A stretch of DNA of 43,034 bases. Source: a virus. Within the stretch, counting starts at the first letter, position 1. The number at the start of each line of letters is the position of its first letter. The stretch spans positions 1 to 43,034 of the IMG/VR virus record IMGVR_UViG_3300046491_000455, one strand, 5' to 3'. Below are positions 18,346-39,517 of the stretch, in pieces. The position numbers were made by a program, and so were the translations under genes. Below the pieces are notes generated by a model. That model was given only the letters and a program-made list of their open reading frames with translations, did not search any database and was not told the origin of the DNA.

Positions 18346-18348
18346 CCC

Positions 18349-18654: not shown

Positions 18655-18657
18655 GCC

Positions 18658-19107: not shown

Positions 19108-19126
19108 CTGAACAGGAGAACCTAGA

Positions 19127-19482: not shown

Positions 19483-19506
19483 CTGGCGCCCGAGCAAACA
19501 AGACAA

Positions 19507-19529
19507 CGCCGGCCCAGCGCCGGCTTTTT
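19507..19529 (+). terminator. Intrinsic terminator before the large terminase gene
   Basis: GCCGGC - CCAGC - GCCGGC followed by TTTTT, 24 bp after the preceding stop. It separates the large terminase gene from the early part of the operon and would need read-through for late expression. Confidence 0.8.
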
Positions 19530-19550
19530 CAATTCCGGAGGATCCCGCCC

Positions 19551-21038: not shown

Positions 21039-21042
21039 CCGC

Positions 21043-21076
21043 CCGTATACGTCCCGAGGTGGACGCCTCATAGGAT
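21043..21076 (+). promoter_or_regulatory. Candidate late promoter, copy 1
   Basis: CCGTATACGTCCC ends at 21055, just after the terminase stop. TAGGAT follows exactly 15 bp later (21071-21076), before the GNAT-dioxygenase gene. The 8-bp core CGTATACG is self-complementary. Same layout as at 24436, 25558 and 39458. Confidence 0.55.
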
Positions 21077-21105
21077 GCCCGACATCCCTACTGGAGGCCC
21101 ACCCC

Positions 21106-22095
21106 ATGATTACCCTCATCGAAACCGACCGCGTCGCCGACGTGATCGACCTATCCACTGCGTTGCAGCTGGAGCACTGGGAAGAGATCGCCAAGAACAA
21201 GCACCTGATGGTGCTGGCACCCGACGTCGACAAGTACCGCGCCATCGAGCAGGCCGGCAAGCTGTTCGCCGTGCTGGCCTATGACGGCGACGAGATGGTC
21301 GGCTACTCGGTCAACATCCTCGACCACAACCTGCACTACCGGGACCTGCTGCAGGCGCAGAACGACGTGCTGTTCGTGAAGCCATCGCACCGGGCCGGCC
21401 GGCTGTTCATGCGCCTGCGCGAAGCGACCCTGCGCATGGCTGCCGCGCGTGGCGCGCGCCTGATGCTATGGCACGCCAAAGAACAGACCCCGCTGGCCGC
21501 GATCCTGCCGCGGCTGGGCTGCAAGGTGCAGGACGTGATCTACAGCGAAGAGCTGCCGGCGTCCAGCTTCCGACTGTTCGGCCAGTTCGACGTCTCGGCC
21601 GCGCTCGACGAGCAAGCAGCCTGTGACCTGTGGGACGTGTTCACCGCACGCCAGGATGCGCCCGGCAGTGCCCACCACGACACCCGCTGCATCGTGCTGC
21701 GCGCGCCGGTCGGCGACATCCTCACGCCCGACGTGGTGTTCAACGAACTGCAGTCGGTCGACACCAATGCGGTGGAATACCTGCCGGCCGTGCGCGACCT
21801 GTGCGTCGCTGCCTGCGAGCGGCTGGGCGTGAAGGAGCTGGGCCGGGTCATGCTGGTGGAGCTGGCGCCCGGTGGCCACATCGACCGCCACTTCGACGAC
21901 GGCGCCTATGCCGCGCACTACCAGCGTTTCCACCTGGTGCTGCAGTCGGACGAGGGCAACAGCTTCACCAATGGCGACGAATCCATCCACATGAAGCCGG
22001 GCGAGCTCTGGCAGTTCAACCACCGTATCGAGCACGAAGTCACCAACGCCAGCGCGAGGCCGCGCATCCATCTCATCATCGACGCAACCGTTTAA
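21106..22095 (+). CDS. GNAT acetyltransferase - aspartyl/asparaginyl hydroxylase fusion
   Basis: A 329-residue two-domain protein. Residues 1-150 read as a GNAT N-acetyltransferase (VLAYDGDEMVGYSVNIL, then VLFVKPSHRAGRLFMRLREA as the acetyl-CoA-binding loop and helix). Residues about 200-329 read as a 2-oxoglutarate/Fe(II) dioxygenase of the aspartyl/asparaginyl hydroxylase type: GGHIDRHFDDG gives the H262-x-D264 iron pair, H310 (HEVTN) the distal His, and R320 in RPRIHLIID the 2-oxoglutarate contact. The two domains share one frame with no internal ribosome site seen. It lies between terminase and portal, where related podophages carry a stand-alone GNAT gene as I recall. Substrates are unknown; a virion or host protein is the simplest guess. 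CTGGAGG precedes the ATG. Confidence 0.85.
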   Translation: MITLIETDRVADVIDLSTALQLEHWEEIAKNKHLMVLAPDVDKYRAIEQAGKLFAVLAYDGDEMVGYSVNILDHNLHYRDLLQAQNDVLFVKPSHRAGRLFMRLREATLRMAAARGARLMLWHAKEQTPLAAILPRLGCKVQDVIYSEELPASSFRLFGQFDVSAALDEQAACDLWDVFTARQDAPGSAHHDTRCIVLRAPVGDILTPDVVFNELQSVDTNAVEYLPAVRDLCVAACERLGVKELGRVMLVELAPGGHIDRHFDDGAYAAHYQRFHLVLQSDEGNSFTNGDESIHMKPGELWQFNHRIEHEVTNASARPRIHLIIDATV

Positions 22096-22107
22096 GGAGT
22101 TACAAAC

Positions 22108-22407
22108 ATGGGTGTTTCAGCAATGGCAGCAGTTGCCGTCATCAGCGCCGGGGCGGCTTACGTCAGCCACGAAGACCAGAAGAAGGCGCAGGAACAGAGC
22201 GTCGACCAGGCCAAGAAGACCGCCACCGCAGCCGACGAGGCGAACAACAAGGCAAACCAGAAGCGCGCCAACAGCTCGGCGCTGCTGTCGTCGAACCAGA
22301 TGGCGGCCAAGGGTGGCCAGGCCGGCACCATGCTGACCGGGCCGTCGGGCGTGGATCCCAGCGCGCTCCAGCTTGGCAAGACCACCCTGCTGGGCGGGGG
22401 CGGCTGA
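22108..22407 (+). CDS. Small helical head-region protein, unknown
   Basis: A 99-residue protein: a short hydrophobic N-terminus (MGVSAMAAVAVISAGAAYVS), a charged coiled coil (HEDQKKAQEQSVDQAKKTAT), and a Gly-rich end (GGGG). It is a common companion of podophage portal genes in my recollection; a minor virion part is likely. AAGGAG precedes the ATG. Its TGA shares a base with the portal ATG (TGATG). Confidence 0.7.
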   Translation: MGVSAMAAVAVISAGAAYVSHEDQKKAQEQSVDQAKKTATAADEANNKANQKRANSSALLSSNQMAAKGGQAGTMLTGPSGVDPSALQLGKTTLLGGGG

Positions 22408-24077
22408 TGACGACCGAACGCAACCGCATGATTCAACGCTGGGGCTCACTCAAGAACGAGCGTTCCAGCTGGGTCGACCACTACCGCGAGATTTCCGGCT
22501 ACCTGCTGCCGCGCTCCGGGCGGTTCCTGATCGAGGACCGCAACAAGGGCGGCAAGCGCCACAACAACATCTACGATTCGACCGGCACCCGCGCGCTGCG
22601 CGTGCTGTGCGCCGGCCTGATGGGTGGCGCCACGTCGCCGGCCCGGCCGTGGTTCCGGCTGTCGGTACAGGACAAGGAACTGGCCAAGTCCGAAGCCGTC
22701 AAGGTGTGGCTGTCGCAGGTCACCGACCTGATCCTGGCCGTGTTCGCCAAGTCCAACACCTACCGCGCGTTGCATACCATGTATGGCGAGATGGCCGGCT
22801 TCGGCACCGGCGCCAACCTGATCACCGGGGATTTCAAGGACGTGATCCGGCACTTCCCGCTGGCCACCGGCGAATACTGCCTGGCGCAGGACTGGCGCGG
22901 CGAGGTGTGCACGGTCTACCGCGAATTTCAGAAGACCGTCGGCGAGCTGGTGATGGAGTTCGGCCGCGACAAGGTCAGCAACTCGGTGCGCAACCTGTAC
23001 GACCGCGGCAACCTCGACGCCTGGGTGACGATCGTGCACGGCATGGAACCGCGGGTCGAGCGTGACGCCACCAAGCTAGACCCGCAGAACATGGCATGGC
23101 GCTCGGTCTACTTCGAACTGGGCACCGACAACGACAGCACGCTGCGCGAATCCGGCTTCAAGCGATTCGCGGCGATCTGCCCGCGCTGGGAGGTGGGCAG
23201 CGGCGGCGACATCTACGGCAGCAGCCCGGGCATGGAAGTGCTGGGCGACATCAAGCAGCTGCAGCACCAGAACCTGCGCAAAGGCCAGGTCATCGACTAC
23301 CAGACCAAGCCTCCGCTGCAGGTGCCGCTGACCATGAAGGGCCAGGCCATCGAAACCCTGCCGGGCGGGATCAGCTACTACGACCCGGCCACCGCACACG
23401 GCAAGATCGAGAGCGCCTGGCAGGTGAACATGAATCTGGATCACCTGCGCATGGACATGGGCGAAGTGCGCCAGCGTATCAAGGAGGGCTTTTACACCGA
23501 CCTGTTCCTGATGCTGTCGAACCTCGACAAGACCGGCATGACCGCCACCGAAGTGGCCGAGCGCCACGAAGAGAAGCTGCTGATGCTGGGCCCGGTGATC
23601 GAGCGACTGGACAACGAGGCGCTGAACCCGCTGGTCGACAACGCGTTCGACCAATTGCTGATGGCCAGCGCCCTGCCGCCGCCGCCGCCCGACCTACACG
23701 GCCAGCAGCTGGAGGTGGTCTATACGTCGGTGCTGGCGCAGGCGCAGCGCGCGGTGGCCACCAACGGCGTCGACCGCTTCGTCGGCAACCTGGGCCAGAT
23801 CGCAGCCTTCAAGCCGGGCGTGCTTGACAACTTCAACGAGGACGAATGGGCGCGCTCCTACGCCGACATGCTGGGCGTGTCGCCGGCCCTGATCGTGCCA
23901 TCGAGCCAGGTGGCGATCATCCGGCAGCAGCGCGCGCAGGCGCAAGCACAAGCGCAGCAGGCCGCGGCGTTGGAACAGATGTCAGCCACCGCCAAGAACC
24001 TGGGGGCAACACCGACCACCGGCGGCAATGCCGCTTCCGACGTAATGAACATGTTTGCCCAAGGCGTAGGCCGCTAA
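22407..24077 (+). CDS. Portal protein (podophage head-tail connector)
   Basis: Forms the dodecameric ring through which DNA enters and leaves the head. The 556-residue protein matches the podophage Head-tail_con layout: RWGSLKNERSSWVDHYREIS, YDSTGTRALRVLCAGLMGGA, SPARPWFRL, then a long helical body and a Gln/Ala-rich C-terminus (QAQAQAQQAAALEQMSATAK). The frame is open far upstream, but the ATG at 22407 overlaps the previous stop and begins the family N-terminus. A stretch of seven prolines (PPPPPPP except one Leu nearby) marks about residue 428. Confidence 0.93.
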   Translation: MTTERNRMIQRWGSLKNERSSWVDHYREISGYLLPRSGRFLIEDRNKGGKRHNNIYDSTGTRALRVLCAGLMGGATSPARPWFRLSVQDKELAKSEAVKVWLSQVTDLILAVFAKSNTYRALHTMYGEMAGFGTGANLITGDFKDVIRHFPLATGEYCLAQDWRGEVCTVYREFQKTVGELVMEFGRDKVSNSVRNLYDRGNLDAWVTIVHGMEPRVERDATKLDPQNMAWRSVYFELGTDNDSTLRESGFKRFAAICPRWEVGSGGDIYGSSPGMEVLGDIKQLQHQNLRKGQVIDYQTKPPLQVPLTMKGQAIETLPGGISYYDPATAHGKIESAWQVNMNLDHLRMDMGEVRQRIKEGFYTDLFLMLSNLDKTGMTATEVAERHEEKLLMLGPVIERLDNEALNPLVDNAFDQLLMASALPPPPPDLHGQQLEVVYTSVLAQAQRAVATNGVDRFVGNLGQIAAFKPGVLDNFNEDEWARSYADMLGVSPALIVPSSQVAIIRQQRAQAQAQAQQAAALEQMSATAKNLGATPTTGGNAASDVMNMFAQGVGR

Positions 24078-24097
24078 CCCCACCGAAAGGAATCACC

Positions 24098-24433
24098 ATG
24101 CCCAATCTCGCAATGACCGCCGAAGAGGCCAAGAAGGAATACGGCGACTGCTGCGTTTCGCCGGATGCCGACAGCCTGCCCAAGTATCCCTACGGGCTGA
24201 CCGTTTATCTGGACGACGATACTCTCAAGAAGTTGGGAATCACCGACCTGCCCAAGGTCGGCTCCTCGCTACCGGCCACGATCACGTTCATGGTTACCGG
24301 CACCAGCCAGCGCGCCACCCAGTCGGGCAAGGAAGGCGAAACCATGCGCACCTGCGTCGACCTGCAGATCACCGACATGGACATCGCGGCGCCGTCCAAG
24401 CCGGCGGCCGACGTGCTCTACCCAGCCAAGTAG
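24098..24433 (+). CDS. Small head protein ending in ADVLYP, unknown
   Basis: A 111-residue protein (MPNLAMTAEEAKKEYGDCCV, YLDDDTLKKLGITDLPKVGS) with a beta-rich centre and a C-terminus SKPAADVLYPAK. The same ADVLYP ending occurs in the scaffold encoded two genes later, so both may dock on the same partner, most simply the capsid or portal. Bicistronic position after the portal suggests a head or virion role. AAAGGAA precedes the ATG. Confidence 0.75.
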   Translation: MPNLAMTAEEAKKEYGDCCVSPDADSLPKYPYGLTVYLDDDTLKKLGITDLPKVGSSLPATITFMVTGTSQRATQSGKEGETMRTCVDLQITDMDIAAPSKPAADVLYPAK

Positions 24434-24435
24434 CG

Positions 24436-24469
24436 GCGTATACGTCCCGGTCCAGCGCGCCCATACAGT
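24436..24469 (+). promoter_or_regulatory. Candidate late promoter, copy 2
   Basis: GCGTATACGTCCC ends at 24448 and TACAGT starts 15 bp later (24464-24469). A start about 7 bases on would be at or next to the ATG of the Bbp19-like gene (24477), giving a nearly leaderless message. Confidence 0.55.
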
Positions 24470-24476
24470 GGCGCGC

Positions 24477-24782
24477 ATGACCGAACATGACCCCCTCGAC
24501 GTACAGCAGCAGGACGCGGCGCGCGATGAATCCGAAGCGCGCGCCGCCCTGACCCGCGAACAGGAAGCCGTCGACTTCCTCTGGCTGATGGCCGACCCGC
24601 GCGGCCGGCGCCTCGTGTGGCGCCAGCTGGCCGCCTCCCGCGTGTTCCATTCCAGTTTCGACCCCACCGCCATGAACATGGCTTTCAACGAAGGGCGCCG
24701 CGCCGAAGGCCTGCGCTTGCTCGCGCAGGTCCATGCGCTGTGCCCTGACCTCTATCCCACCATGATGAAGGAGAACGCGTAA
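24477..24782 (+). CDS. Bbp19-like phage protein
   Basis: A 101-residue protein matching, by recall, the Bbp19 family of Bordetella phage BPP-1: acidic N-terminus (MTEHDPLDVQQQDAARDESE), EAVDFLWLMADPRGRRLVWR and a helical end. Its role in the virion is not known to me; it always seems to sit between portal and scaffold genes. The ATG at 24477 follows no ribosome site, which fits a leaderless transcript from the motif upstream; an in-frame GTG at 24468 falls inside the -10-like box. The TAA shares a base with the scaffold ATG. Confidence 0.8.
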   Translation: MTEHDPLDVQQQDAARDESEARAALTREQEAVDFLWLMADPRGRRLVWRQLAASRVFHSSFDPTAMNMAFNEGRRAEGLRLLAQVHALCPDLYPTMMKENA

Positions 24783-25546
24783 TGCCTGGAGATACCCTGA
24801 TCACCGCGCCGGCTGCCGCCCCGGCACCGGCTGCAGCACCTGCCCCTGCAGCACCAGCGCCAGCAGCCGCACCAGCAGCCGGCGGCGCAGCAGCACCGGC
24901 CACGTTTGACGCAGCCACCGGCAAGCCGGTCGACGCGGGCGCCGCAGAACCGGGCGCTGGCGCACCTGGCGAAGCGGCCAAGCCGGGCGAAGGCGAACCC
25001 GGCAAGACCGCGGAGCAGATCGAAGCCGAGCGCGTCGCGGCCGAGGAAGCGGCCAAGGCCAACGAGAAACCGGTCGGCGCGCCGGAAAAGTACGAGCCCT
25101 TCACCCCGCCCGAAGGTGGCCAGCTCGATGCCACCGTGATGGAGCAGTTCGGCGAGGTCGCGCGCGAGCTGAACCTGCCGCAGGACAAGGCGCAGCTGTT
25201 GATCGACAAGATGGCGCCCAAGATCGTCGAGCGCCAGGTCGCACACATCGAAACCATGCGCACCGAATGGGCCACGCAAGCTACTGCCGACAAGGAATTC
25301 GGCGGCGACAAGCTGGCCGAGAACATGGCGGTGGCCAAGAAGGCGATGGACACGTTCGCCACGCCCGAGCTGACCAAGCTGCTCAACGACACCGCACTTG
25401 GCAACCATCCCGAGGTGATCCGCTTCATGGTGCGCGCCGGCCGTGCCATCAGCGAAGACAAGGTCGTCACCGGCGGCGTGCCGGGAGCCACCAGCCAGCG
25501 ATCAACCGCCGACGTGCTCTACCCCAGCAGCGCCCTGAAAAAGTAA
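24782..25546 (+). CDS. Capsid scaffolding protein
   Basis: Probable internal scaffold guiding capsid assembly. The 254-residue protein has a long Ala/Pro-rich N-terminus (residues 8-40), an acidic disordered stretch, a helical core (DATVMEQFGEVARELNLPQD, then KAQLLIDKMAPKIVERQVAH) and a C-terminus QRSTADVLYPSSALKK. Position directly before the capsid gene, acidic helical nature and the conserved-looking C-terminal tail support a scaffold; a protease is less likely since no catalytic motif is seen. Starts in TAATG with the preceding gene. Confidence 0.78.
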   Translation: MPGDTLITAPAAAPAPAAAPAPAAPAPAAAPAAGGAAAPATFDAATGKPVDAGAAEPGAGAPGEAAKPGEGEPGKTAEQIEAERVAAEEAAKANEKPVGAPEKYEPFTPPEGGQLDATVMEQFGEVARELNLPQDKAQLLIDKMAPKIVERQVAHIETMRTEWATQATADKEFGGDKLAENMAVAKKAMDTFATPELTKLLNDTALGNHPEVIRFMVRAGRAISEDKVVTGGVPGATSQRSTADVLYPSSALKK

Positions 25547-25557
25547 GCAGCCGCGGC

Positions 25558-25590
25558 GGTATACGTACCGCTGCACAGACTATTTACCCT
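25558..25590 (+). promoter_or_regulatory. Candidate late promoter, copy 3
   Basis: GGTATACGTACC ends at 25569 and TACCCT lies 15 bp later (25585-25590), ahead of the capsid gene at 25645. Here the element differs in one base (TACC for TCCC), making CGGTA-TACG-TACCG a longer dyad. Confidence 0.5.
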
Positions 25591-25644
25591 TCAATCTCAC
25601 TCAAGCATTGCTGAGTTTTCAACCCCAAAACCACGGAGTAATAC

Positions 25645-26664
25645 ATGGCACTTTTAGCAGCTGGCGCGCTCACTCTCGCCGATTGGGCAAAACGCCTCGA
25701 CCCCGACGGCCAGGTGCCGAAGGTGGCCGAGCTCCTGTCGCAGACCAACGAGATTCTGGAAGATGCGGTCTTCAAGGAAGGCAACCTGCCGACCGGCCAC
25801 CGCGTGACGATCCGCACCGGCCTGCCGCAGGTCTTCTACCGCATGATCAACCAGGGTGTGCCGGCATCCAAGTCGACCACCGCGCAGATCGACGAAGCGT
25901 GCGGCATGCTCGAGGCCCGTTCGCACATCGACGTCAAGCTGGCCAACCTGAACGGCAATTCGGCGGCGTTCCGTCTGTCCGAGGACGAAGCGTTCATCGA
26001 AGCGATGAATCAGACCATGTGCGGCACCATGTTCTACGGTAACCCAGGCACCGATCCGCGCCACTTCGCCGGCCTGCAGACCCGTTACAGCTCGCTGACC
26101 GCTGGGAACGGCGCCAACATTCTGGACGCTGGCGGCACCGGCACCAACAACTGCTCGATCTACCTGGTCGTGTGGGGCGAGAACACCGTGTTCTGCCCGT
26201 TCCCGAAGGGTTCCAAGGCCGGCCTGCAGCATCAGGACCTGGGCGAGGAATCGGTGCCGGATTCGAACGGCAACATGTTCCAGGCACTGCGCGCGCTGTA
26301 CCAGTGGGAAAACGGGCTGGTCGTGAAGGACTGGCGCTATGTGGTCCGGATCGCCAACATCAACGTTACCGACCTGACCGGCCAGTCGGCGACGCAGGCG
26401 GCATCGGCCGCGACGCAGATCATTAACCTGATGGTGCGCGCGCAGGACCGCATCCCGAACCTGTCGATGGGCCGCGCTGTGTACTACGCGAACCGCACCG
26501 TCTACTCGATGCTGCGCGTGGCTGCCCTGAACAAGTCGCAGAGCGTGCTGACGATCGAGGCCGCCACCAACCAGTTCGGCAACGCGTACAAGATGACCAG
26601 CTTCCTGGGCATCCCGCTGCGCAAGGTCGACCAGCTGCTCAACACGGAATCGCGCGTCGTCTAA
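25645..26664 (+). CDS. Major capsid protein
   Basis: Builds the phage head. The 339-residue protein has the layout of BPP-1-type podophage capsid proteins: MALLAAGALTLADWAKRLDP, NEILEDAVFKEGNLPTGHRV, NGNSAAFRLSEDEAFIEAMN, YGNPGTDPRHFAGLQTRY, and a C-terminal FLGIPLRKVDQLLNTES. I infer an HK97-like fold from the family. GGAGT precedes the ATG. The 75-bp leader after the promoter-like motif is the longest in the late region, fitting a highly expressed gene. Confidence 0.92.
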   Translation: MALLAAGALTLADWAKRLDPDGQVPKVAELLSQTNEILEDAVFKEGNLPTGHRVTIRTGLPQVFYRMINQGVPASKSTTAQIDEACGMLEARSHIDVKLANLNGNSAAFRLSEDEAFIEAMNQTMCGTMFYGNPGTDPRHFAGLQTRYSSLTAGNGANILDAGGTGTNNCSIYLVVWGENTVFCPFPKGSKAGLQHQDLGEESVPDSNGNMFQALRALYQWENGLVVKDWRYVVRIANINVTDLTGQSATQAASAATQIINLMVRAQDRIPNLSMGRAVYYANRTVYSMLRVAALNKSQSVLTIEAATNQFGNAYKMTSFLGIPLRKVDQLLNTESRVV

Positions 26665-26701
26665 GCGGCACGCCGATCCCTCAGACTTAAAGGAATCCAC
26701 C

Positions 26702-27187
26702 ATGTTTCTCGATGCACTTTTGCTCCTCTCCGGTTCGGTGTCGGCGGTCGGTGCGCTGACCGGCCAGGCCGTGAACGGCGCCGGCACCATCCTGTCGGCC
26801 AACACCATCGACGCGGCGCCGCTGGCGCTGGGCGGCAACCAGCCGGGCGACATCGGCTCTGGCGAAGACCTGAACGTCGCCTTCTCGGTGCTGACCGCGC
26901 CGACCGTCGGCACCAGCGTGCAGTTCCAGGTGATCCAGGCCGATGACGCGGCGCTGACCGCCAACGTGGAAGTGATCAGCTCGAGCGATGCGGTCCCGAT
27001 AGCCAAGCTGCCGGCCGGCACCGTCATCAAGCTGGGCATCAACCCGGCACCGGGCGCGGCCCGCCGCTACATCGGCGCCCGCTACATCAACGTCGGCGCG
27101 ATCGCCACCTGCTCGATCTCTGCCGCCGTGGTCAAGGACGTGCAGGGCAAGAACACGGCGTTCAAGTCGGGCTACTCGATCCTCTGA
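26702..27187 (+). CDS. Bbp16-like capsid cement protein
   Basis: Decorates and stabilises the capsid surface. The 161-residue, beta-rich protein starts MFLDALLLLSGSVSAVGALT and contains DIGSGEDLNVAFSVLTAP, DAVPIAKLPAGTVIKLGINP and RYIGARYINVG, the pattern of the Bbp16 capsid cement family. It directly follows the capsid gene with AAAGGAA before the ATG. Confidence 0.87.
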   Translation: MFLDALLLLSGSVSAVGALTGQAVNGAGTILSANTIDAAPLALGGNQPGDIGSGEDLNVAFSVLTAPTVGTSVQFQVIQADDAALTANVEVISSSDAVPIAKLPAGTVIKLGINPAPGAARRYIGARYINVGAIATCSISAAVVKDVQGKNTAFKSGYSIL

Positions 27188-27243
27188 TAACCAACCGGCG
27201 CGGGGCTTCGGCCCCGTTCCCATTTACCTGATTGGAGAAACAC

Positions 27244-27906
27244 ATGAACCGTCACACCCGCAACGCGCGCTTCGGCGCTTCGATGATGGCGCTGGCCATC
27301 GCTTCCACCTTCGTGACTGCCGCCGGCACCGCAAGCGCCGACAACCCGGCCGGCACCAGCGCACCGCGCGAGCCGGTCCAGTACCGCGTCAAAGAGAAAT
27401 CCCTGATCGGCAACGACGTGCACGAAGCCGGCGCCACCGTCAGCTACGCCGGCCTGCCGTCCGAGAATCTGGAACCGCTGTGCGACGAAGGCCGCAAGCG
27501 CGCCGTCGAGTACAAGGAATCGAACGCCGCGCGCGTCAAACAGATGATCGCGTCGACTGCCGGCGACAGCCCGGTCGGCGACCCGGCCAAGTTCATGGAG
27601 GCGTTCACCAAGGCGCTGGCCGAAGAGCGCGCCGAGCACCAGGCGCAGCTGGCCGCGCAGCAGGAAACGATGGCCAAGATGCTGGAGATGCAGCAAACCG
27701 CGTCGATCCAGCTGGCCGAGGCCGCCAAGAACATGGCAACCCTGGCCGCCGCCATCACCGCGGCGCCTGCCGCTCCTGTCGTTGCCGCTTCGGCAATCGG
27801 CGCCGTGATCCAGGCGCAGGTCGACAACCAGGCGCCGGCTGCCGACGCTGCCGCCAAGGACACCGGCACCGATGCCGGCGCACCGGCGAAACGCACCCGG
27901 AGCTAA
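27244..27906 (+). CDS. Virion-region protein with signal-peptide-like N-terminus, unknown
   Basis: A 220-residue protein. Residues 1-32 (MNRHTRNARFGASMMALAIA, then STFVTAAGTASA) look like a Sec signal peptide with an AxA cleavage site. This is unusual for a gene between cement protein and tail adaptor. Next comes a small domain (YRVKEKSLIGNDVHEAGATV SYAGLP), then a coiled coil (about 110-180) and an Ala-rich end. The YRVKEKSLI...EAG region is the part I recall in other phage proteins of this place. GGAG precedes the ATG at 27244. Either it is truly exported, or the N-terminus inserts into membrane during ejection. A terminator follows. Confidence 0.75.
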   Translation: MNRHTRNARFGASMMALAIASTFVTAAGTASADNPAGTSAPREPVQYRVKEKSLIGNDVHEAGATVSYAGLPSENLEPLCDEGRKRAVEYKESNAARVKQMIASTAGDSPVGDPAKFMEAFTKALAEERAEHQAQLAAQQETMAKMLEMQQTASIQLAEAAKNMATLAAAITAAPAAPVVAASAIGAVIQAQVDNQAPAADAAAKDTGTDAGAPAKRTRS

Positions 27907-27938
27907 TCCCGCATCGCTCACGCGGCGCATTTTCGGAA

Positions 27939-27968
27939 GGGCGATCTTGCGGTCGCCCTTTTTCTTTT
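27939..27968 (+). terminator. Intrinsic terminator between head and tail genes
   Basis: GGGCGA - TCTTGCGG - TCGCCC followed by TTTTTCTTTT. It splits the head operon from the tail genes. Confidence 0.82.
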
Positions 27969-27984
27969 CTGGAGAACGAAACCC

Positions 27985-28593
27985 ATGTCATCCGAAGTCG
28001 AAATCTGCAACCTCGCGCTGTCCCACCTGGGCGACAGCGCCACCGTGGCCAGCATCAACCCGCCGGAAGGATCGGCGCAGGCCGAGCACTGCCAGAAGTG
28101 GTATCCGATCGCGCGCAACGCGCTGCTGGAAATGCACGACTGGGGCTTCGCCACCACGCGCGCGCTGCTGGCCGAGCTGCCCAACACCTGGGCGCAATGG
28201 CAGCACGCCTATGCGCGCCCATCCGACTGCCTCAAGGTGCTGGCGATCCTGCCGTCGACCGGCACCTGCAGCGACAGCAACGCGCAGGCCTTCGTCACCG
28301 AGTCGGGCGCCGACGGCAGCCGGATCATCCTGGCCGACCAGTGCAACGCGGTCGCGCGCTACACACGGGCCGTCACTGACACCAGCCGGTTCTCGGCGCT
28401 GTTCACCGATACGCTGGGCTGGCACTTGTCAACCTACCTGGCCGGGCCGGTGCTCAAGGGCGAAAGCGCCATCAAGGTGGCGCGCGCGAACATGCAGGTC
28501 GTGCTGGAAATGCTGGCGCAGGCCAAGCTCGCCGACGCGGCGCAGCAGCACCAGCCGGTGGTGCACGCGGTCCCCTGGCTGGCGGGGCGCTGA
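27985..28593 (+). CDS. Head-to-tail adaptor (T7 gp11 / tail tubular A-like)
   Basis: Joins portal and tail nozzle. The 202-residue protein begins EICNLALSHLGDSATVASIN, then AEHCQKWYPIARNALLEMHD WGFAT, the typical start of T7 gp11-like adaptors, followed by DCLKVLAILPS and a helical C-terminus. Length matches the family. It is the first gene after the terminator; GGAGAA precedes the ATG. Confidence 0.88.
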   Translation: MSSEVEICNLALSHLGDSATVASINPPEGSAQAEHCQKWYPIARNALLEMHDWGFATTRALLAELPNTWAQWQHAYARPSDCLKVLAILPSTGTCSDSNAQAFVTESGADGSRIILADQCNAVARYTRAVTDTSRFSALFTDTLGWHLSTYLAGPVLKGESAIKVARANMQVVLEMLAQAKLADAAQQHQPVVHAVPWLAGR

Positions 28594-28594
28594 C

Positions 28595-30655
28595 ATGGCC
28601 GAGAAAATCAAATCCTACAAGGCCAGTTTCAACGGTGGCGAGCTGACCCCGGAATTCTTCGGCCAGATCGGCGACGCCAAATTCCAGACCGGGCTGGCGA
28701 CTTGCCGCAATTTCGTCATCAAGCCACAGGGGCCGATCGAGAACCGGGCCGGCCTGGCGTTCGTGCGTGAAGTGAAGGACTCGACCAAGGCGGTGCGCCT
28801 GCTGCCGTTCACCTACTCGACCACGCAGACCATGATTCTGGAGCTAGGCGCCAGCTACTTCCGTTTCCACACGCAGGGCGCCACCCTCCTGGACGGCGTC
28901 GATCCCTACGAGATCGCCAACCCTTACGCCGAGCTCGACCTGTTCGACATCCACACGACACAGTCGGGCGACGTGCTCACGCTGGTGCACCCGAACTATC
29001 CGTCGATGGAGCTGCGCCGGCTGGGCGCGATCAACTGGACGCTGGTGCCGCTCACCTTCGCGCCCGGCGTGCTGCCGCCGACCGGCATCACGGCGACCCC
29101 GGATTCCATGCGCGCGGGCGTCAACATGCAGTACGTGGTCACCACCCTGTCGGATGATGGCCTGACCCAGTCGGTGGCCAGCGCCGTGGCCAACTGCACC
29201 AATAACATCTTCGCGGTCGGCGCCTCCAACCTGATCGACTGGAGCGCACCGGCTGGCGCCACGGCTGGCGTCACCCAGTACATGGTCTTCAAGTACGTGG
29301 GCGGCACCTTCGGCTACATCGGGCGCACCAGCGACCTGCAGCTGACCGACGACAACATCGCCCCCGACATGTCGCTGACCCCGCCGCGCTACGACACCCT
29401 GGCGCAGGCGCCCGGCGACTATCCGAGCGCCACCAGCTACTACGAGCAGCGCCGGGTCTTCGGCGGCACCATCAACTCGCCGCAAAAAATCTGGATGACG
29501 CGGTCGGGCACCGAGTCGGACATGTCGTACTCGCTGCCGACCCGGGACGACGACCGCATCGCGTTCCGGATTGCCGCGCTCAAGGCCAACACGGTGCGCC
29601 ACCTGGTGCCGCTGTCCGACCTGATCGTGCTGACCAGTTCCACCGCGTTCCGGATCACGTCGGTGAACACCGATGCGCTGACCCCGACCTCGATCTCGGC
29701 CAAACCGCAGTCGCACGTCGGCGCCTCCAACCTGCAGCCGGTGATCATCGACAGCAATCTGGTCTACGCTGCCGACCGCGGTGGCCACCTGCGCGAGATG
29801 AGCTATTCACGCGACGCCAACGGCTACGCATCGGGCGACCTGTCGCTGCGGGCGATCCACCTGTTCGACGATTACGAGCTGGTCGACATGGCCTATGCGC
29901 AGGCGCCGATCCCGATCGTGTGGGCGGTCAGCTCGTCGGGCAAGCTGCTGGGCCTGACCTACGTGCCCGAGCAGCAGGTCGGCGGCTGGCACCAGCACGA
30001 CACCGACGGCACGTTCGAATCGTGTGCGGTAGTGGCCGAGGGCCGCGAGGACGTGCTGTATGTCGTGGTGCAGCGCCAGATCGACGGCGAGCAGAAACGC
30101 TACATCGAACGCCTGGCCAGTCGCCGCTTCGTGGATCCGGCCGACGGCTTCTTCGTCGACTGCGGCGCCACCTACCGCGGCGCGCCGGCCACCATCATCA
30201 GCGCGCTCGACTGGCTGGAGGGCAAAACGGTCAGCATCCTGGCCGACGGCGAGGTGCACCCGCAGCGCGTGGTCGCCGATGGCGCCGTCACGCTCGACAA
30301 CCCGGCCAGCATCGTGCACATCGGGCTGCCGATCACAGCCGACGCCAAGACGCTGCCGCTGGCGGCGCAGGTCGACGCCGGCTATGGCCAGGGCCGGGTC
30401 AAGAACGTGAACAAGGTATGGATGCGCGTGGTGCGCTCGAGCGGCGTGTTCGCCGGCCCGAGCGTCGATCGCCTGGTGCAATACAAGCAGCGCACCACCG
30501 AGCCGTTCGGCAGCCCGCCCGCGCTGCGCACCGACGAGATCGAGCTGGACGTGCGGCCGGACTGGGGCAACGACGCTTCCTTTATCGTTCGGCAATCTGA
30601 TCCGTTACCTATCACCATCACATCCATGACGATGGAAGTCGTCATCGCTAACTAG
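28595..30655 (+). CDS. Tail nozzle protein (T7 gp12 / tail tubular B-like)
   Basis: Forms the short tail tube end. The 686-residue protein starts MAEKIKSYKASFNGGELTPE, then FRNFVIKP-like TCRNFVIKPQGPIENRAGLA, a signature of podophage nozzle proteins, with a long beta-rich body. The ATG at 28595 follows the adaptor stop by one base; the frame is open upstream to 27872 but that part is Arg-rich shadow. It is followed by the internal virion genes, as in T7-like tails. Confidence 0.87.
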   Translation: MAEKIKSYKASFNGGELTPEFFGQIGDAKFQTGLATCRNFVIKPQGPIENRAGLAFVREVKDSTKAVRLLPFTYSTTQTMILELGASYFRFHTQGATLLDGVDPYEIANPYAELDLFDIHTTQSGDVLTLVHPNYPSMELRRLGAINWTLVPLTFAPGVLPPTGITATPDSMRAGVNMQYVVTTLSDDGLTQSVASAVANCTNNIFAVGASNLIDWSAPAGATAGVTQYMVFKYVGGTFGYIGRTSDLQLTDDNIAPDMSLTPPRYDTLAQAPGDYPSATSYYEQRRVFGGTINSPQKIWMTRSGTESDMSYSLPTRDDDRIAFRIAALKANTVRHLVPLSDLIVLTSSTAFRITSVNTDALTPTSISAKPQSHVGASNLQPVIIDSNLVYAADRGGHLREMSYSRDANGYASGDLSLRAIHLFDDYELVDMAYAQAPIPIVWAVSSSGKLLGLTYVPEQQVGGWHQHDTDGTFESCAVVAEGREDVLYVVVQRQIDGEQKRYIERLASRRFVDPADGFFVDCGATYRGAPATIISALDWLEGKTVSILADGEVHPQRVVADGAVTLDNPASIVHIGLPITADAKTLPLAAQVDAGYGQGRVKNVNKVWMRVVRSSGVFAGPSVDRLVQYKQRTTEPFGSPPALRTDEIELDVRPDWGNDASFIVRQSDPLPITITSMTMEVVIAN

Positions 30656-30665
30656 GGGAAACAAT

Positions 30666-31322: not shown

Positions 31323-31325
31323 TCC

Positions 31326-33494
31326 ATGCCAACCGTCCCAACCTACGGTGGCGCGCAAGTCGCGCCCACCAGCGCCAACGGCGCCGGCTTCGCCACTCCC
31401 CAGCAGCAGAACGCCACGCCCGGCCAGCTGATGAACCTGGGCGACGGCATGGCACGCGCCGGCAATGCCGCGGCGAACATCGCGGTCGACCTGCAGCAGC
31501 AGGTCAACCAGGTGCGCGTCGATGACGGCCTGAACAAGATCCGGCAGCAGGCGCTGGACCTGACCTATAACCCGGACACCGGCTACAAGACGCTTCGCGG
31601 CGACGCGGCTCTGACCCGCCCGGACGGCAAGCCGCTGGCCGAGGAATACGGCAGCAAGCTGCAGACCGCCATTTCCGACACGGCGGCCAAGCTGGGCAAC
31701 GATGCGCAGCGCGCCGCCTTCGCGCACAGCGCCAACGGGCTGATGCGGCAGTTTCAGTCGGGCCTGGAAGAGCACACGCTGGCCGAGTACAAGGCCTATT
31801 CGCTGTCGACCCAGGAGGGCACGATCAAGCTGGGCGTGGACGAGGCGCGCCGTAACTGGCAAGACCCGGACAAGATCCGCAGTTCGCTCGACTCGGTCAA
31901 GGCAGCGGTGGCCAAGACTGGCCAGCTGTCCGGATGGTCGGGCAGCGACACCACCGCCCGCATGCGAGAAGTCACCAGCTCTGTGCACAGCGGCGTGATC
32001 GAAACCGCGCTCGCCGAGAACAACCCGGAATACGCACTGGGCTACATCGACCAGTACAAGGGCGAGATGACGGCCGGCGACCTGCTCAAGGTGCGCGGCG
32101 CGATCAACAAGGACGTCTACCAGCGCCTGGCCGACGGCATCGCCACCAACGTCGTCGGCGCAGCGCGCGCGCAGGCCCAGCCCGGCGACATGGGGCGCAT
32201 GGTGGCCATCACTATCGGCAGCGAAAGCGGCGGCGACCCGAACGCAGTGGGCCGCAACATCCCGGGCCAGGGCACTGCCAAGGGCGACATGCAGGTGATG
32301 GACGCCACCAACATTGACCCGGGCTTCGGTGTCGAGCCAGCCAAGGACGGCAGCAAGGAAGAGCGCACGCGCGTGGGCCGCGACTACTTGCAGGCGCTGG
32401 TCAAGCACTACGCGGGAGATCCGGGCAAGGCCTGGGGCGCCTACAACTGGGGGCCGGGCAAGGTCGACGCGGCGATCAAGGAACACGGCAGCGGCTGGCT
32501 GGCGCACGCCCCGGAGGAAACGCAGACCTATGTGGCCAAGAACCTGGCCGCGCTGGGCGCCGGTGGCGGCGTCGTCAAGCCGACCCTGCAGCAGATCCAC
32601 GACACCGTGCGCGAGCAGGTCACGGCCCGCTTCGGCGCCACCCCGCCGGCCGGCGTGATGAAGCTGGCGATGGCCACCGCCACCCAGCAGTTCGAAGACA
32701 ACGCCAAGGCGATCAAGGCCGACGAGGAAGCGCGCACCACTGCCGCCATGCAGGCGCTGCGGGAGAACGGTGGCAAGTTCTCGCAACTGCCGTATGCGGT
32801 GCGCGCGAACATCCCGGCCGACAAGGTCGACCAGGTGCTGAACTATGGCCAGAAGGTGGCCAAGGGCGACGACATCACCAACCCGGCCGTCTACCAGAAG
32901 CTGAGCGACCCGGGCACCTTGCGCCACCTGTCCGACGACCAGTTCTTCCAGCTGCGCGCCGAACTGTCTGACGCCGATTTCAAGCACTTCTCGGCACAGC
33001 GCGCCGCGGCCCTGGACAAGAGCACCAACAAGGTCGAAGAGATCAACATGTCGGCGATGAACGCGACCCTGCGCGACCGTTTCCAGACGCTCGGCATCGA
33101 CCCGACCCCGAAGGATGGCAGCGACGAAGCCGGCCGCGTGGGCGCGATCAAGAAGTTCGTCACCGACAGCATGCTGGCGCAGCAGAAGATCAGCGGCAAG
33201 CAGATGAGCGATGCTGACGTCGAAAAGCACATCGACGGCCTGTTCGCAAAGTCGGTCAGCTTCCGCAGTTCGTTCCTGGGCATGGACACCGGCAAGACCA
33301 GCCAGCGCATGCTGACGATGAAAGCGAGCGACATTCCGGACGACACTCGCAACGCCCTGCTGCGCGACTTCACGGCGGCCGGCATCTCGGCGCCGAAGGA
33401 TGCCGATTTGCTAGGCGCCTACTTCCGACTCAAGCAAATCCCACAAAAACCACGCCTCGGCCAGATCGCCAGCGGAAAGGTCACCTACAAATGA
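31326..33494 (+). CDS. Internal virion protein with lytic transglycosylase domain
   Basis: A 722-residue ejection protein. Residues about 285-405 form a lysozyme-like transglycosylase domain: MVAITIGSESGGDPNAVGRN carries the catalytic Glu300 (SE-SGG), followed by GTAKGDMQVM and WGAYNWGPGK. This would open peptidoglycan so that DNA can pass. The flanking parts are long and helical. It corresponds to the gp15/gp16 function in T7-like phages, with the transglycosylase in the middle rather than at an end. Its stop overlaps the next start as ATGA. Confidence 0.88.
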   Translation: MPTVPTYGGAQVAPTSANGAGFATPQQQNATPGQLMNLGDGMARAGNAAANIAVDLQQQVNQVRVDDGLNKIRQQALDLTYNPDTGYKTLRGDAALTRPDGKPLAEEYGSKLQTAISDTAAKLGNDAQRAAFAHSANGLMRQFQSGLEEHTLAEYKAYSLSTQEGTIKLGVDEARRNWQDPDKIRSSLDSVKAAVAKTGQLSGWSGSDTTARMREVTSSVHSGVIETALAENNPEYALGYIDQYKGEMTAGDLLKVRGAINKDVYQRLADGIATNVVGAARAQAQPGDMGRMVAITIGSESGGDPNAVGRNIPGQGTAKGDMQVMDATNIDPGFGVEPAKDGSKEERTRVGRDYLQALVKHYAGDPGKAWGAYNWGPGKVDAAIKEHGSGWLAHAPEETQTYVAKNLAALGAGGGVVKPTLQQIHDTVREQVTARFGATPPAGVMKLAMATATQQFEDNAKAIKADEEARTTAAMQALRENGGKFSQLPYAVRANIPADKVDQVLNYGQKVAKGDDITNPAVYQKLSDPGTLRHLSDDQFFQLRAELSDADFKHFSAQRAAALDKSTNKVEEINMSAMNATLRDRFQTLGIDPTPKDGSDEAGRVGAIKKFVTDSMLAQQKISGKQMSDADVEKHIDGLFAKSVSFRSSFLGMDTGKTSQRMLTMKASDIPDDTRNALLRDFTAAGISAPKDADLLGAYFRLKQIPQKPRLGQIASGKVTYK

Positions 33495-36400
33495 GCGACT
33501 ACAACGACAACGAAGACACCGCGGGCGCCGTCGCCGCATACCTGAACCCGGGGCAGGGCCAGCCGGCGCAGGCAGCAAAGGCAGCCATGACGGTGGCCGC
33601 CGGCAGCAATCCCGATTTGGAGGCCGAGTTGCGCCGCGTCGCTGAGCGCACCGGCGTGCCGCTCGATGCGGCGCGCGCCTATCCGGACGAGGTCAAGCAA
33701 CAGGCCGCGCTGCAGGCCCACGACTTCGACGCGCTGGCGCGCCAGTTCCCCAGCACGACCCGCTTTCTGGCCGACCCCGACAACGCGCGCATCGCGCACG
33801 ACGACGTGGCCAACCTGTCGAACACCGAGGCTGCCATCAGGGCGCTGCCAGCGCCATCCAAGCCGGCGCCGTCGTTCGGCGCGCAAGCCCTGGACTTCGC
33901 AGCTGAGAACCTGAAATCGCTGGTCAGCGCGCCCGGGTCGACCAGCGCTGGGACTGAATTTGGCAAGGGCTTGGCGGGTTCCTTCAACAAGGCGGCCGGC
34001 TCGGTCAACCTGGTGCTGGGTGCTTTCCCGACGCTGTACGACAAGGCGGCCAGCCTAATCACCGGCAAGAACACGACCAGCGCAAGCGATTACTGGTTCC
34101 GGAATATGGTCGACCCGCGCTTGGGCACACAATCGAAATACGAGGCGCCGAAGGACGCGCCGTTTGTTGCGAAGGCTGGCAACACCGCCGGCAACCTGTT
34201 GGGCGTGCTGGCGCAGATCGTCGGTACCGGGGGCGGCGGGGAACTGGCGCCGGCGGCCGACACCGTCGCCGGAATCGTCGGGCAGACCGCGGCGCACGGC
34301 GCCAAGTCGATGGCCTTCCCTGCGATCGCCGATTCGGTCGCGATGGGCAACAACGTCTACCAGCAGACCGGCGACATCAACGCCGCCATGCGCGCCGCAC
34401 AGGCGCAATACCTGTCCACCACCATGGCCGGCATCGTTCCGCTGGGCGTACCGGGCGGGCTGGCCGCGCGCTCCGCCACCGGATTCCTGTCCGGTGCCAT
34501 CGTAAGTGAGTCAAGCCGGGCAACCATGAACATGGTGCTGCCGACTTCAATGGCGCAACCTTTCGACCTGGAGCAAACTATGCTGTCGGGCCTGGCCGGC
34601 GCCGGGCTGGGCATGGCGATGGGCCCGCGCGCTGAGCCGGGCTATCACGACGCGCTGCGCCGGACCTACGCGGATGCCGCGCGCGCCGACCGCGCCGAGC
34701 AGGGAATGCAGGCGCTGGCCGCGCTGGGCGAGGTGGCAACGTCGAGCAAGACACGCGAGCGCGACCCCGCCGCCTTCCGCCAGTTGGTGCAGGACATGAC
34801 GGAGAATGGCCAACTGCAGGACGTCTACGTGTCGGCCAAGGACTTGGGCGAGGTGCTGAACCAGTCCGGAGTGACGCCGGCGCAACTGGCTGCCGCCCTG
34901 CCCGACCTCGCCGCCCAGCTGCACGAAGCGACGATGACGAACGGCGACGTGCGCATCCCGGTCGAGGACTACGCCACCCACATCGCCGGCGGCCCGGTCG
35001 ACGCCGCGCTGCTGCCGCATCTGAAGACCGACGCCGAAGGCATGACGTTCAAGGAGGCGCAGGACCACTTCGCCGGCCAGCAGGACGCCATGCACGCGAC
35101 CGCCGAGCAGCTGGGCGCAGAGCAGGCCAAGATCGACACCAAGGCGGCGGACAGCCAGGGCGTGCACGATGACATCCTGGCGCAGCTGAACCGGTTGGGG
35201 CGCTTCAACCCGGAGACGAACAAGTCGTATGCCGCGCTGATGCGCGCCTTCTTCGAGACGCAGGGCGAGCGCCACGGCTTGAGCGCGCGCGAGGTGTACG
35301 ACCGGTCCGGCCTGAGCATCAAGGGCCAGCCCATCATCGACGGCCTGGACAAGGTCGACCGCGGCGCCTACGACCCGAAGACCGCGACGCTGGCGCTGCT
35401 GAAGGCCGCCGACCTGTCCACCTTCCTGCACGAGTCGGGGCACTTCTTCCTGGAGGCGGCCACCACCCTGGCGGCCCGGCCGGAAGCCACCGACTCCATG
35501 CGCACAGACTCCCTGGCGCTGCTGTCTCACCTGGGCGTCGAGACCCCCGAAGGCGTGGCGCCGCTCGACCACTGGGCAGGCCTGAGCGTGGACGAGAAGC
35601 GTGCCGCCCATGAGCAGTTCGCGGTCGGCTTCGAAAAGTACCTGATGGAAGGCCGCGCGCCGACGATCGAGCTGCAGTCGCTCTTCTCGCGCTTCCGCTC
35701 CTGGCTGGTCAACATCTACAAGTCCCTGGCCAAGCTCGACGTGAAACTGTCGCCGGAGGTGCGCGGCATCATGGATCGCATGCTGGCGTCCGACGAAGCA
35801 ATTCGCGAGGCCGAGCAGACCCGCAAGTATAAGCTGCTGTTCGACTCCCCGGAATCGGCCGAAACCTCGCGCGAGCTGTTCGGCAAGTATGAAGCCCTCG
35901 GCACCCGTGCCACCGACGAGGCGATCGCCGACATGACCGGCCGCAGCATGCGCGACCTGCAGTGGGCCAGCAATGCCAAGGCCAAGGCTATCAGGGCACT
36001 GCAGAAGGAAGCGGCCGGCAAGCGCGCCGTGATCCGCGACCAGGTCGAGCAGGAGATCAACCAGCAACCCGTGTTCGAGGCGGCCGAATTCATCCGGACG
36101 AACACCGGCGACGTCGAGCACAAGGAAGCGCTGGCGGCCTGGACGGAACTCCGCGACGCTGAGGCGGCAGCGGTCAAGGCTGATACGAAGGACAAGGACG
36201 AGCGCGCCGCGCGCATGGCCGACTGGAACGAGGCGAACCCCAAGCCGGAACGCGCGCCGACCCCTGCCGAACAGTGGACCGCGGCGCAGGATACCAAGCG
36301 CGTCGAGCTGACCCAGCAGGTCAAGGACGAGTACCTGGCCAAGCCGGAAGCGGAGGGCGCCAAGGGCCTGAAGAAGGGGCAGTACCTGGCCAAAAACAAG

Positions 36401-39400: not shown

Positions 39401-39454
39401 GGTGTGGCCGACTGGTGGCGTGGCGTCATGCATGGAGACATGAACAAGAAGTAG
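33491..39454 (+). CDS. 1987-residue internal virion/polyvalent protein with HESGH motif
   Basis: The largest gene, about 6 kb. A giant ejection-type protein like the large C-terminal core proteins of podophages or polyvalent proteins. Visible parts: a Gly/Ala-rich region with hydrophobic helices (about 120-350), a metalloprotease-like FLHESGHFFLEA (H647-E648-x2-H651), a long charged coiled-coil stretch (about 770-1330), and a C-terminal region rich in Trp and Tyr (GRYDGWYWPMIYDPARAQDV; FMKLFTMFYTFWNHNVNRLM) with possible membrane-active segments. The HExxH has a hydrophobic context as in zincins, but the third ligand is not identified. It starts within the transglycosylase stop (ATGA). The function of each part is inferred. 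Confidence 0.82.
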   Translation: MSDYNDNEDTAGAVAAYLNPGQGQPAQAAKAAMTVAAGSNPDLEAELRRVAERTGVPLDAARAYPDEVKQQAALQAHDFDALARQFPSTTRFLADPDNARIAHDDVANLSNTEAAIRALPAPSKPAPSFGAQALDFAAENLKSLVSAPGSTSAGTEFGKGLAGSFNKAAGSVNLVLGAFPTLYDKAASLITGKNTTSASDYWFRNMVDPRLGTQSKYEAPKDAPFVAKAGNTAGNLLGVLAQIVGTGGGGELAPAADTVAGIVGQTAAHGAKSMAFPAIADSVAMGNNVYQQTGDINAAMRAAQAQYLSTTMAGIVPLGVPGGLAARSATGFLSGAIVSESSRATMNMVLPTSMAQPFDLEQTMLSGLAGAGLGMAMGPRAEPGYHDALRRTYADAARADRAEQGMQALAALGEVATSSKTRERDPAAFRQLVQDMTENGQLQDVYVSAKDLGEVLNQSGVTPAQLAAALPDLAAQLHEATMTNGDVRIPVEDYATHIAGGPVDAALLPHLKTDAEGMTFKEAQDHFAGQQDAMHATAEQLGAEQAKIDTKAADSQGVHDDILAQLNRLGRFNPETNKSYAALMRAFFETQGERHGLSAREVYDRSGLSIKGQPIIDGLDKVDRGAYDPKTATLALLKAADLSTFLHESGHFFLEAATTLAARPEATDSMRTDSLALLSHLGVETPEGVAPLDHWAGLSVDEKRAAHEQFAVGFEKYLMEGRAPTIELQSLFSRFRSWLVNIYKSLAKLDVKLSPEVRGIMDRMLASDEAIREAEQTRKYKLLFDSPESAETSRELFGKYEALGTRATDEAIADMTGRSMRDLQWASNAKAKAIRALQKEAAGKRAVIRDQVEQEINQQPVFEAAEFIRTNTGDVEHKEALAAWTELRDAEAAAVKADTKDKDERAARMADWNEANPKPERAPTPAEQWTAAQDTKRVELTQQVKDEYLAKPEAEGAKGLKKGQYLAKNKRAIDNEVERRLIELAKDKPKPAGDGPLPKEFVAEMFGFPDEKTMMDAIKAAGNKKAAIESITDQRMLEQHGELTDAAHIEQAAHEAVHNETRARFMATGLKILSKSPIPARQLVKAAREAAEASIAAKRMRDLRPAQYLAAEARSNAEAVKLAPKDPAGAVQAQRAALLNNQLFRAADTAVRDTQKSLRYLARFNRDSVRAKIDVEYRDQIDALLDRHDLRQSVSGTALDKREALLSFVERMAAAGFEPRVPEGLLNEARRTHYKDMTVEEFNGLVDAVKSIDHLGRLKTELLDGREKREIEALATEAANTMAELKQRGPESNRGLSRIGAAWLGAKSAGRSLQASLLKMEQMMDWLDNRNPNGVLNRVVFRRIADAGVKEADLQAKVKAGIDELMHAHLEDVTKDGGKIYVADNLIDSQTGQPQRFTKKEMLALAGNMGNDSNLSKLAAGEKWDQQHVWNFLHENMSKADWDFVAGLGRTLESLWPEKLAMSRRLGNSNPEKIAPRPFDTPHGRYDGWYWPMIYDPARAQDVAERGARSGDSLFENVYSRANTDTGRTNTRSENYARPLLLSLDVIPRVIKDEIHDIAYREAVMDADRFLSNGKVRDGIVAALSQQHYDQLRPWLQSIANDRKVDMQALKWFDQVAHGARTRATIVGLGYRLSTMLVHGSSAAMESIAEVGPVWMSKGVADFANPMQWAANKDFIFERSGEMRNRMNEVDRDVREHLREIDLRLMDTTTGVVARGADLMKAHAYQGIAMLDMASALPTWMAAYHKGMAPEAQGGKGLSEQDAIYFADKTVRNAHGGTGVKDMAAVQRGPEFMKLFTMFYTFWNHNVNRLMDTARMAGELPATYRSGEMAKFRGDLGNVIMRTLIYTIGVQAMHGIFHPKQDEDGDTHWAAWAAKEFTAAAFAGIPILRDLSAHYLTGKDYSATPAASMVDAVGRSGQDAANAMAGQEVSEKWVKHTVTTAGYVFGLPTGQAASAVQFLWDVEQGKAHPEGVADWWRGVMHGDMNKK

Positions 39455-39457
39455 CCC

Positions 39458-39490
39458 CGTATACGTCCCGGGCGCTCCACTGCTGAGAAT
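39458..39490 (+). promoter_or_regulatory. Candidate late promoter, copy 4
   Basis: CGTATACGTCCC ends at 39469 and GAGAAT lies 15 bp later (39485-39490), ahead of the tailspike ATG at 39518. The element starts three bases after the stop of the giant virion gene. Confidence 0.55.
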
Positions 39491-39517
39491 GCAGCTTTCG
39501 AAATGGAGCGCCCGCAT

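Follow-up and report, generated by a model that had tools for sequence, protein, structure and literature searches.

Predicted late promoters in a BPP-1-like phage and its relatives, with a Bbp27-family helix-turn-helix protein as candidate activator

Four copies of a 12-bp box, each followed at a fixed distance by a sigma70-type -10 hexamer, precede late genes in a BPP-1-like phage, and they are likely to be late promoters read by the host sigma70 polymerase by way of a phage helix-turn-helix (HTH) protein encoded at 18016-18345. The window, which is the whole 43,034-nt stretch of DNA that was analysed, comprises positions 1 to 43,034 of IMG/VR virus record IMGVR_UViG_3300046491_000455. Site anatomy, conservation, strand bias, spacing, association with the HTH protein, residue-base covariation, and hairpin covariation were shown by sequence.

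Phage, host, and gene content

The window carries genes for an integrase, a CI-like repressor, a Cro-like protein, a replication protein, RusA, terminase, and head and tail proteins, and on the basis of this gene set the phage was identified as a temperate BPP-1-like podophage. Its best capsid relatives in IMG/VR were up to 98% identical. A prophage of Massilia sp. PDC64 encodes a protein closely related to the candidate activator, and the host is therefore likely to be Massilia or its kin. No phage RNA polymerase gene (T7-like single-subunit system) was found among the window ORFs scanned, and related Caulobacter phages have been reported without one (PMC11053796). Near the integrase, at 2989-6004 on the minus strand, are genes for a DUF5131 protein and a C5 cytosine methylase. 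Between the repressor and Cro genes (14260-14345), TTAGGA-type half-sites recur and an early promoter of standard form, TTGACT-N17-TAATAT, is present; the TATACGTCC that this region has in common with the late motif looks coincidental.

Boxes and -10 hexamers in the window

The motif GTATACGTMCC was found at 21045, 24438, 25559, and 39459, all on the + (late) strand and all intergenic, and its chance expectation in 100 dinucleotide shuffles of the window was 0. The 12-bp boxes begin 4-12 bp past the stop codons of the preceding genes (21038, 24433, 25546, and 39454), and the gap to a sigma70-type -10 hexamer is exactly 15 bp at 4/4 sites. When the hexamer is set at -12 to -7, the box occupies about -39 to -28, the place of the -35 element. 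No TTGACA-like promoter was found at the first three sites in a sigma70 scan of 14000-33900, which covers only those three, and no consensus -35 was seen by eye at the fourth, which lies outside the scan. The sites thus have the sequence layout of an activator-dependent sigma70 promoter, namely a -10 at a fixed distance from a box with no -35 consensus at the scanned sites. The features claimed in an earlier sequence-only reading (four intergenic copies, proximity within about 15 bp to a stop codon, the exact 15-bp gap, and the lack of a consensus -35) all held.

Late promoter P1 (21044-21076, + strand) consists of CGTATACGTCCC at 21044-21055, a 15-nt spacer, and the -10 hexamer TAGGAT at 21071-21076, with a predicted start at about 21083. 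The first gene past it is the post-terminase GNAT-hydroxylase gene (21106-22095, + strand), the product of which fuses an acetyltransferase-like N-terminal part with an aspartyl/asparaginyl hydroxylase-like C-terminal part. Orthologous sites were located in L004, L005, L007-L010, L122, L123, and L127, and the position is that of the BPP-1 bbp24 site. Late promoter P2 (24437-24469, + strand) has CGTATACGTCCC, 15 nt, and TACAGT at 24464-24469; its start is predicted at about 24476, and the ATG of the Bbp19-like gene (24477-24782, + strand; Pfam Phage_Bbp19, 1.2e-14) is at 24477, from which an essentially leaderless mRNA is predicted.

Late promoter P3 (25558-25590, + strand) has GGTATACGTACC, 15 nt, and TACCCT at 25585-25590, with a predicted start at about 25597, and is followed by the major capsid gene (25645-26664, + strand; phrog_212, 9.7e-85). 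The neighbouring genes ending at 24404-24433 and 25510-25546 were observed to encode near-identical C-terminal peptides, ADVLYPAK and ADVLYPSSALKK. In L006, L008, and L015 the protease gene contains the capsid-proximal promoter, whose -10 hexamer, TAYCCT, codes for the YP of this peptide.

Late promoter P4 (39458-39490, + strand) has CGTATACGTCCC, 15 nt, and GAGAAT at 39485-39490, with a predicted start at about 39497, and orthologous sites are present in records G001, G004, and G006 and in the Massilia sp. PDC64 prophage. The next gene encodes a tailspike with a Peptidase_S74 chaperone domain (39518-41689, + strand). The tailspike thus held as the fourth late gene of the sequence-only reading, with its start moved from 39503 to the probable ATG at 39518; the ORF is readable from 39503 too, and 39518 was preferred because of a Shine-Dalgarno (SD) sequence at 39505-39508 and N-terminal similarity to relatives.

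Conservation of the box in relatives

In relatives whose capsids are 87-98% identical, the same genes are preceded by the same boxes on the same strand, and the three longest close-relative records (G001, G004, and G006) have four sites each. In a 7.5-Mb Massilia genome, GTATACGTNCC occurred four times, always within the related prophage region and nowhere else; addition of N15-TANNNT left three matches, all in the prophage, and the reversed control gave 0. The BPP-1 equivalents are GGTGCCCGTGCC-N15-TACTGT, -TAGAGT, and -TAGCCT, located 5' of bbp24, bbp19, and bbp9, respectively. Three copies of GGTACCCGTATC were found in ctQRb9 and three of GGTGCCCGTATM in ctEw122, DC33 and zth2-2 have their own versions of the box, and SR18 has the box GGTGCGCATGAT with imperfect -10 hexamers. 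Limnohabitans phage DC33 (L102/L114, PQ492659.1) is listed under Inoviridae though it is a BPP-1-like tailed phage.

BPP-1 and more than 100 environmental relatives have clade-specific versions of the site (NGTRNNCRTNNN-N15-TANNNT), chiefly before Bbp19-like and post-terminase genes, and the generalised (strict) pattern matched 57 sites on the gene strand versus 0 on the opposite strand. After further scans, relatives of the HTH protein were present in 341 loci, and the late strand had 408 repeated sites, in 162 loci, versus 8, in 4 loci, for the opposite strand; some of these loci overlap or are closely related, and the counts do not represent independent events. Since the family pattern fixes bases 2, 3, 7, and 9, nothing can be concluded from their constancy; it left strand bias, spacing, and the remaining bases free. 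The next gene at 245 non-redundant sites was most often a Bbp19-like or post-terminase gene. Divergent boxes (e.g. GTGCGGATAA and CGTGCGCTTAA) were observed 5' of Bbp19 in L012, L239, L279, L390, and L154 at about the same gap to the -10, so the family motif is wider than the search pattern used.

The box varies between related phages and is uniform inside each phage. One alternative is that a host factor or a host alternative sigma reads the box. In its favour are the -10 hexamer and the fact that these phages have different proteobacterial hosts; against it, the box was found in the Massilia genome only in the prophage, and it differs among related phages while remaining uniform per phage and covarying with a phage protein. 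This alternative was judged very unlikely.

The scan of related phages and of the host genome that the sequence-only reading had proposed was thus run, and the motif was present before equivalent genes in relatives and absent from the Massilia chromosome outside the prophage. The late-promoter reading is strongly supported by that absence and by the conserved position, strand, spacing, and -10 in relatives, the starts being inferred. The suggestion that no late-promoter set of this form had been described in BPP-1-like phages partly failed, as BPP-1 itself has such a set; the motif is apparently unannotated there, and no prior mention was found in the open papers searched, the 2004 BPP-1 genome paper (J Bacteriol) not being excluded. 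The palindromic core at which an activator had been proposed to act also failed as a recognised family feature (8-bp palindrome, p=0.77). A direct 6-bp repeat inside the box reached only p=0.056, and the capsid-proximal site was rejected as a family feature, being seen only in the window clade and L015.

Spacing and predicted leaderless Bbp19 mRNA

Bbp19-like genes were located by protein homology for the spacing count. The gap between the box and TANNNT was 15 nt in 141 cases, and each other gap of 8-22 nt occurred at most six times. The Bbp19 start codon lies 5-7 nt past the hexamer in 137 of 143 relatives, so that the 5' end of the Bbp19 mRNA should coincide with the AUG or be only one or two bases away from it. 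A leaderless Bbp19 mRNA is predicted in nearly all relatives, no transcription start having been measured; the almost leaderless message that had been proposed for the start at 24477 held and is a family-wide feature.

Short repeats at gene-block boundaries could also be recombination boundary sequences or packaging or replication sites rather than promoters. This explanation leaves the 15-nt gap to TANNNT, the strand bias, and the fixed start-codon distance unaccounted for, and a site in L008 lies inside a coding end; it was considered to be practically ruled out.

The candidate activator

The candidate late activator (18016-18345, + strand) is a 109-aa HTH protein and an orthologue of BPP-1 Bbp27; other orthologues are small proteins beside the terminase in SR18, ctQRb9, and DC33. 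The HTH gene sits near the terminase in motif-bearing phages, and in the window it is part of the early rightward operon. The terminase small subunit gene (18658-19107, + strand; Pfam Sf6_terminase, 1.4e-16) lies just 3' of it, and this neighbourhood is conserved, the order in BPP-1 being bbp27-bbp26. A Bbp27-like HTH family was defined here by a core G-R-G-H-A-D-V-IR-H motif, an HTH, and a gene close upstream of the terminase, and the window protein fits this definition.

A related capsid is encoded in 91 named records of the annotated phage collection, and of these confident HTH relatives were found only in the BPP-1 group, four Caulobacter phages, DC33, zth2-2, ctEw122, and ctQRb9. The strict pattern and an HTH match were both absent from the fetched stretches of phiV10, PfDIW6, Ab31, and BcepC6B. 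The activator gene is unannotated in ctEw122 (L113 6552-6764) and is labelled "54S ribosomal protein" in ctQRb9 and "endonuclease" in BPP-1 (L112 36495-36830 and L116 26337-26573 for these two labels).

Comparison of the protein with Pfam gave no family at E<=0.1, and PHROG gave only a weak, generic HTH match. Weak matches to the PHROG late transcriptional activators phrog_836 were obtained in 13/31 members (best 2.5e-4), and membership of the Mor/C family (PF08765, phrog_532/836) was not met, the best Mor score being 14.6 bits versus a cut-off of 24.9. Profile comparison (hhalign) with the Mu activators gave probabilities of 15.9% (Mor) and 3.1% (C), and homology was unsupported. Sigma factor membership (regions 2 and 4) was not met by a 109-aa protein with a single HTH, and Sigma70_r4_2 scored 14.3 bits in Bbp27 versus a cut-off of 25.7. 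Assignment to MotA was likewise not met, with no Pfam family at E<=0.1 and a box sequence that differs from the MotA box consensus.

An AlphaFold model of the protein had pLDDT 92-96 over residues 51-80, with the recognition helix at 73-80. The nearest solved folds include the Hin HTH (1ijw, Z 6.0, 2.3 A over 45 residues) and sigma region 4 domains (2h27 and 3n97). A fold-based claim of function was dropped, the PDB matches all being weak (Foldseek E>=0.2, best VIA Z 6.2).

Covariation between protein and box

Covariation was computed as mutual information with average-product correction (APC) for 105 distinct protein/box pairs, over 80 HTH columns and 8 motif positions. The top pair was column 56 (Q77 of the window protein) with base 4 (APC 0.332) and the second was column 57 (K78) with base 6 (APC 0.268), and the two residues are adjacent in the recognition helix. 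Control proteins from the same loci, treated with the same measure, peaked at 0.192 (Bbp19) and 0.187 (TerL). Within a set of 36 proteins less than 70% identical, Q was paired with A in 8/8, R with G in 8/8, K with C in 13/17, D with G in 6/7, and S with G in 4/4, and none of 300 permutations reached the top covariation score. The position 6 pair alone scored 0.174 in this set, below the 99th percentile of the permutation maximum (0.251). Contrasts between independent pairs gave p=2.8e-4 and 3.4e-3, and several other column pairs performed equally well or better in that comparison.

K78 pairs with A in the window clade, not with the usual C. A simple one-residue code failed: L021 (GGTGCGCGT) was predicted to have D at the second position and has G, and D, S, and G all pair with base G. 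Contacts of Gln with A, Lys with G, and Asp with C, the latter two on the opposite strand, are chemically plausible and are offered as a possibility inferred from these pairings. Q77 and K78 are putative specificity residues in the modelled recognition helix, an inference made without binding data, and the residue-base covariation makes it likely, again by inference, that protein and boxes changed together during evolution. The nomination of the 18016-18345 protein as activator in the sequence-only reading was strongly supported by this covariation, no binding data being at hand.

The boxes might instead serve for repression, with the HTH protein, or CI/Cro, using them as operators to shut off late promoters that are otherwise active. 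A location at -39 to -28 would permit occlusion too, and covariation indicates recognition and not its sign. Against repression, no alternative -35 was found at the sites, so that unaided use by sigma70 is hardly expected, the HTH gene has the position expected for a late activator, in the early rightward operon next to the terminase, and the CI/Cro region (14280-14340) has other repeated half-sites. Repression was regarded as highly improbable.

Hairpins around the late promoters

Pairing of the spacer with the region of the translation start was predicted in the window clade. At P2, a hairpin (24449-24482, + strand) with arms at 24449-24461 and 24470-24482 flanks the -10 and would cover the Bbp19 AUG. 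In ten Bbp19 promoters of the window clade, the 13-pair helix was 81.1% paired, and its covariation was 0.267 versus 0.113 in shuffles (0/500 reached it), with slid controls at or below 0.077. The P1 hairpin (21056-21104, + strand; -22.2 kcal/mol) pairs GCCTC at 21065-21069 with GAGGC at 21094-21098, with outer GGTGG/CCACC, and covers the SD GGAGG at 21093-21097; the arms in relatives are CCCCCTCCTA/TAGGAGGGGG. The P4 hairpin (39470-39513, + strand; -25.8 kcal/mol) is formed by GGGCGCTCCA at 39470-39479 and TGGAGCGCCC at 39504-39513 and covers the SD GGAG at 39505-39508. In the window clade, hairpins at the post-terminase and tailspike promoters lie over the SD, at about -13 to -35 kcal/mol, and the capsid promoter of this clade is without such a hairpin. 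The predicted start falls between the hairpin arms, so only read-through RNA would fold. The hairpin was rejected as a family-wide feature (mean z about -0.4 over 223 sites, versus -1.95 in the window clade) and is limited to the window clade and scattered cases.

In BPP-1, a 13-bp stem followed by TTTTT was observed 5' of bbp9 (L104 33469-33520), with the late promoter -10 in the loop. From its sequence this stem is inferred to be a likely terminator for incoming transcripts, and new ones would start in the loop. Sites for antitermination are frequent in phage late genes, and the overlap of this terminator-like stem with the bbp9 site could suggest that the boxes are put/nut-like sites acting on passing RNA polymerase. 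Against this, there are several sites, each with a -10 at the exact spacing, and an AUG at the predicted start, which fits initiation, and the factor resembles a DNA-binding HTH protein; antitermination was judged to be all but eliminated.

Proposed mechanism and comparison with known systems

For the preferred reading as activator-dependent late promoters, DNA binding, activation rather than repression, start sites, and translational effect are inferred, without transcript, binding, or deletion data. The HTH protein would be made from the early rightward operon and would recognise the 12-bp box at about -39 to -28, which would replace the -35 element, while the -10 hexamer would be read by the host sigma70 holoenzyme. 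Bound at the box, the protein would occupy the DNA in lieu of sigma region 4 and recruit or position RNA polymerase, and the post-terminase, head, capsid, and tailspike blocks would thereby be switched on. Transcripts of the Bbp19-like gene would start at or beside its AUG. In the window clade, where 3/4 promoters are within predicted hairpins, read-through RNA would hide the SD or AUG, and RNA begun at the late promoter, lacking the 5' arm, would be translatable.

The arrangement resembles T4 middle promoters (MotA with AsiA), which retain the -10 of the host sigma70 but have, instead of a -35 element, a box read by a phage protein. This MotA box has its centre at -30 and lies 12+-1 bp from the -10, and MotA acts as a monomer (PMC2988021), whereas the box described here is 12 bp long, is centred at about -33.5, lies 15 bp from the -10, and serves late genes. 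Unlike MotA, which has a double-wing fold, the candidate is a small three-helix HTH with flanking strands, and to our knowledge it has no AsiA-like partner. As with Mor (middle) and C (late) of Mu, a small phage HTH activator would serve promoters read by the host RNA polymerase. Mor binds as a dimer to a 16-bp inverted-repeat element whose centre is at -43.5 (PMC4390567), whereas no family palindrome was found here, and the box lies at about -39 to -28 rather than at an inverted-repeat site near -43.5. The HTH of Hin recombinase (resolvase type) and sigma region 4 are among the closest folds and share a common HTH arrangement, with weak scores, but the candidate has no catalytic or sigma region 2 domain.

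The window-clade hairpins match the arrangement at T4 gene e and I-TevI, where a hairpin encloses the late promoter: read-through RNA made early folds up and gives little translation, and late RNA lacks the 5' arm (PMC3014915). Here they are predicted at 3/4 late promoters of one clade; T4, unlike the window phage, uses gp55 late promoters.

A bolder reading is that late control in a large and widespread phage group rests on a single common system, in which a stand-alone sigma-region-4 substitute of about 80 aa acts as a single-domain -35 reader, with its specificity rewritten repeatedly through two adjacent residues, with leaderless late mRNAs fixed, and with silencing hairpins in one clade. 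This is put forward tentatively, the balance being judged to fall slightly against it.

Significance

If the preferred reading is correct, a concrete system of late-gene control would be in hand for hundreds of environmental relatives and for BPP-1 itself, which serves as the reference phage for diversity-generating retroelements, and the unannotated or misannotated Bbp27-family protein would gain a candidate function. The natural co-varying protein/promoter pairs would amount to a ready specificity code for building small activators of transcription that are orthogonal to one another, and the predicted leaderless Bbp19 mRNA, which is conserved, would make leaderless translation late in infection directly testable.
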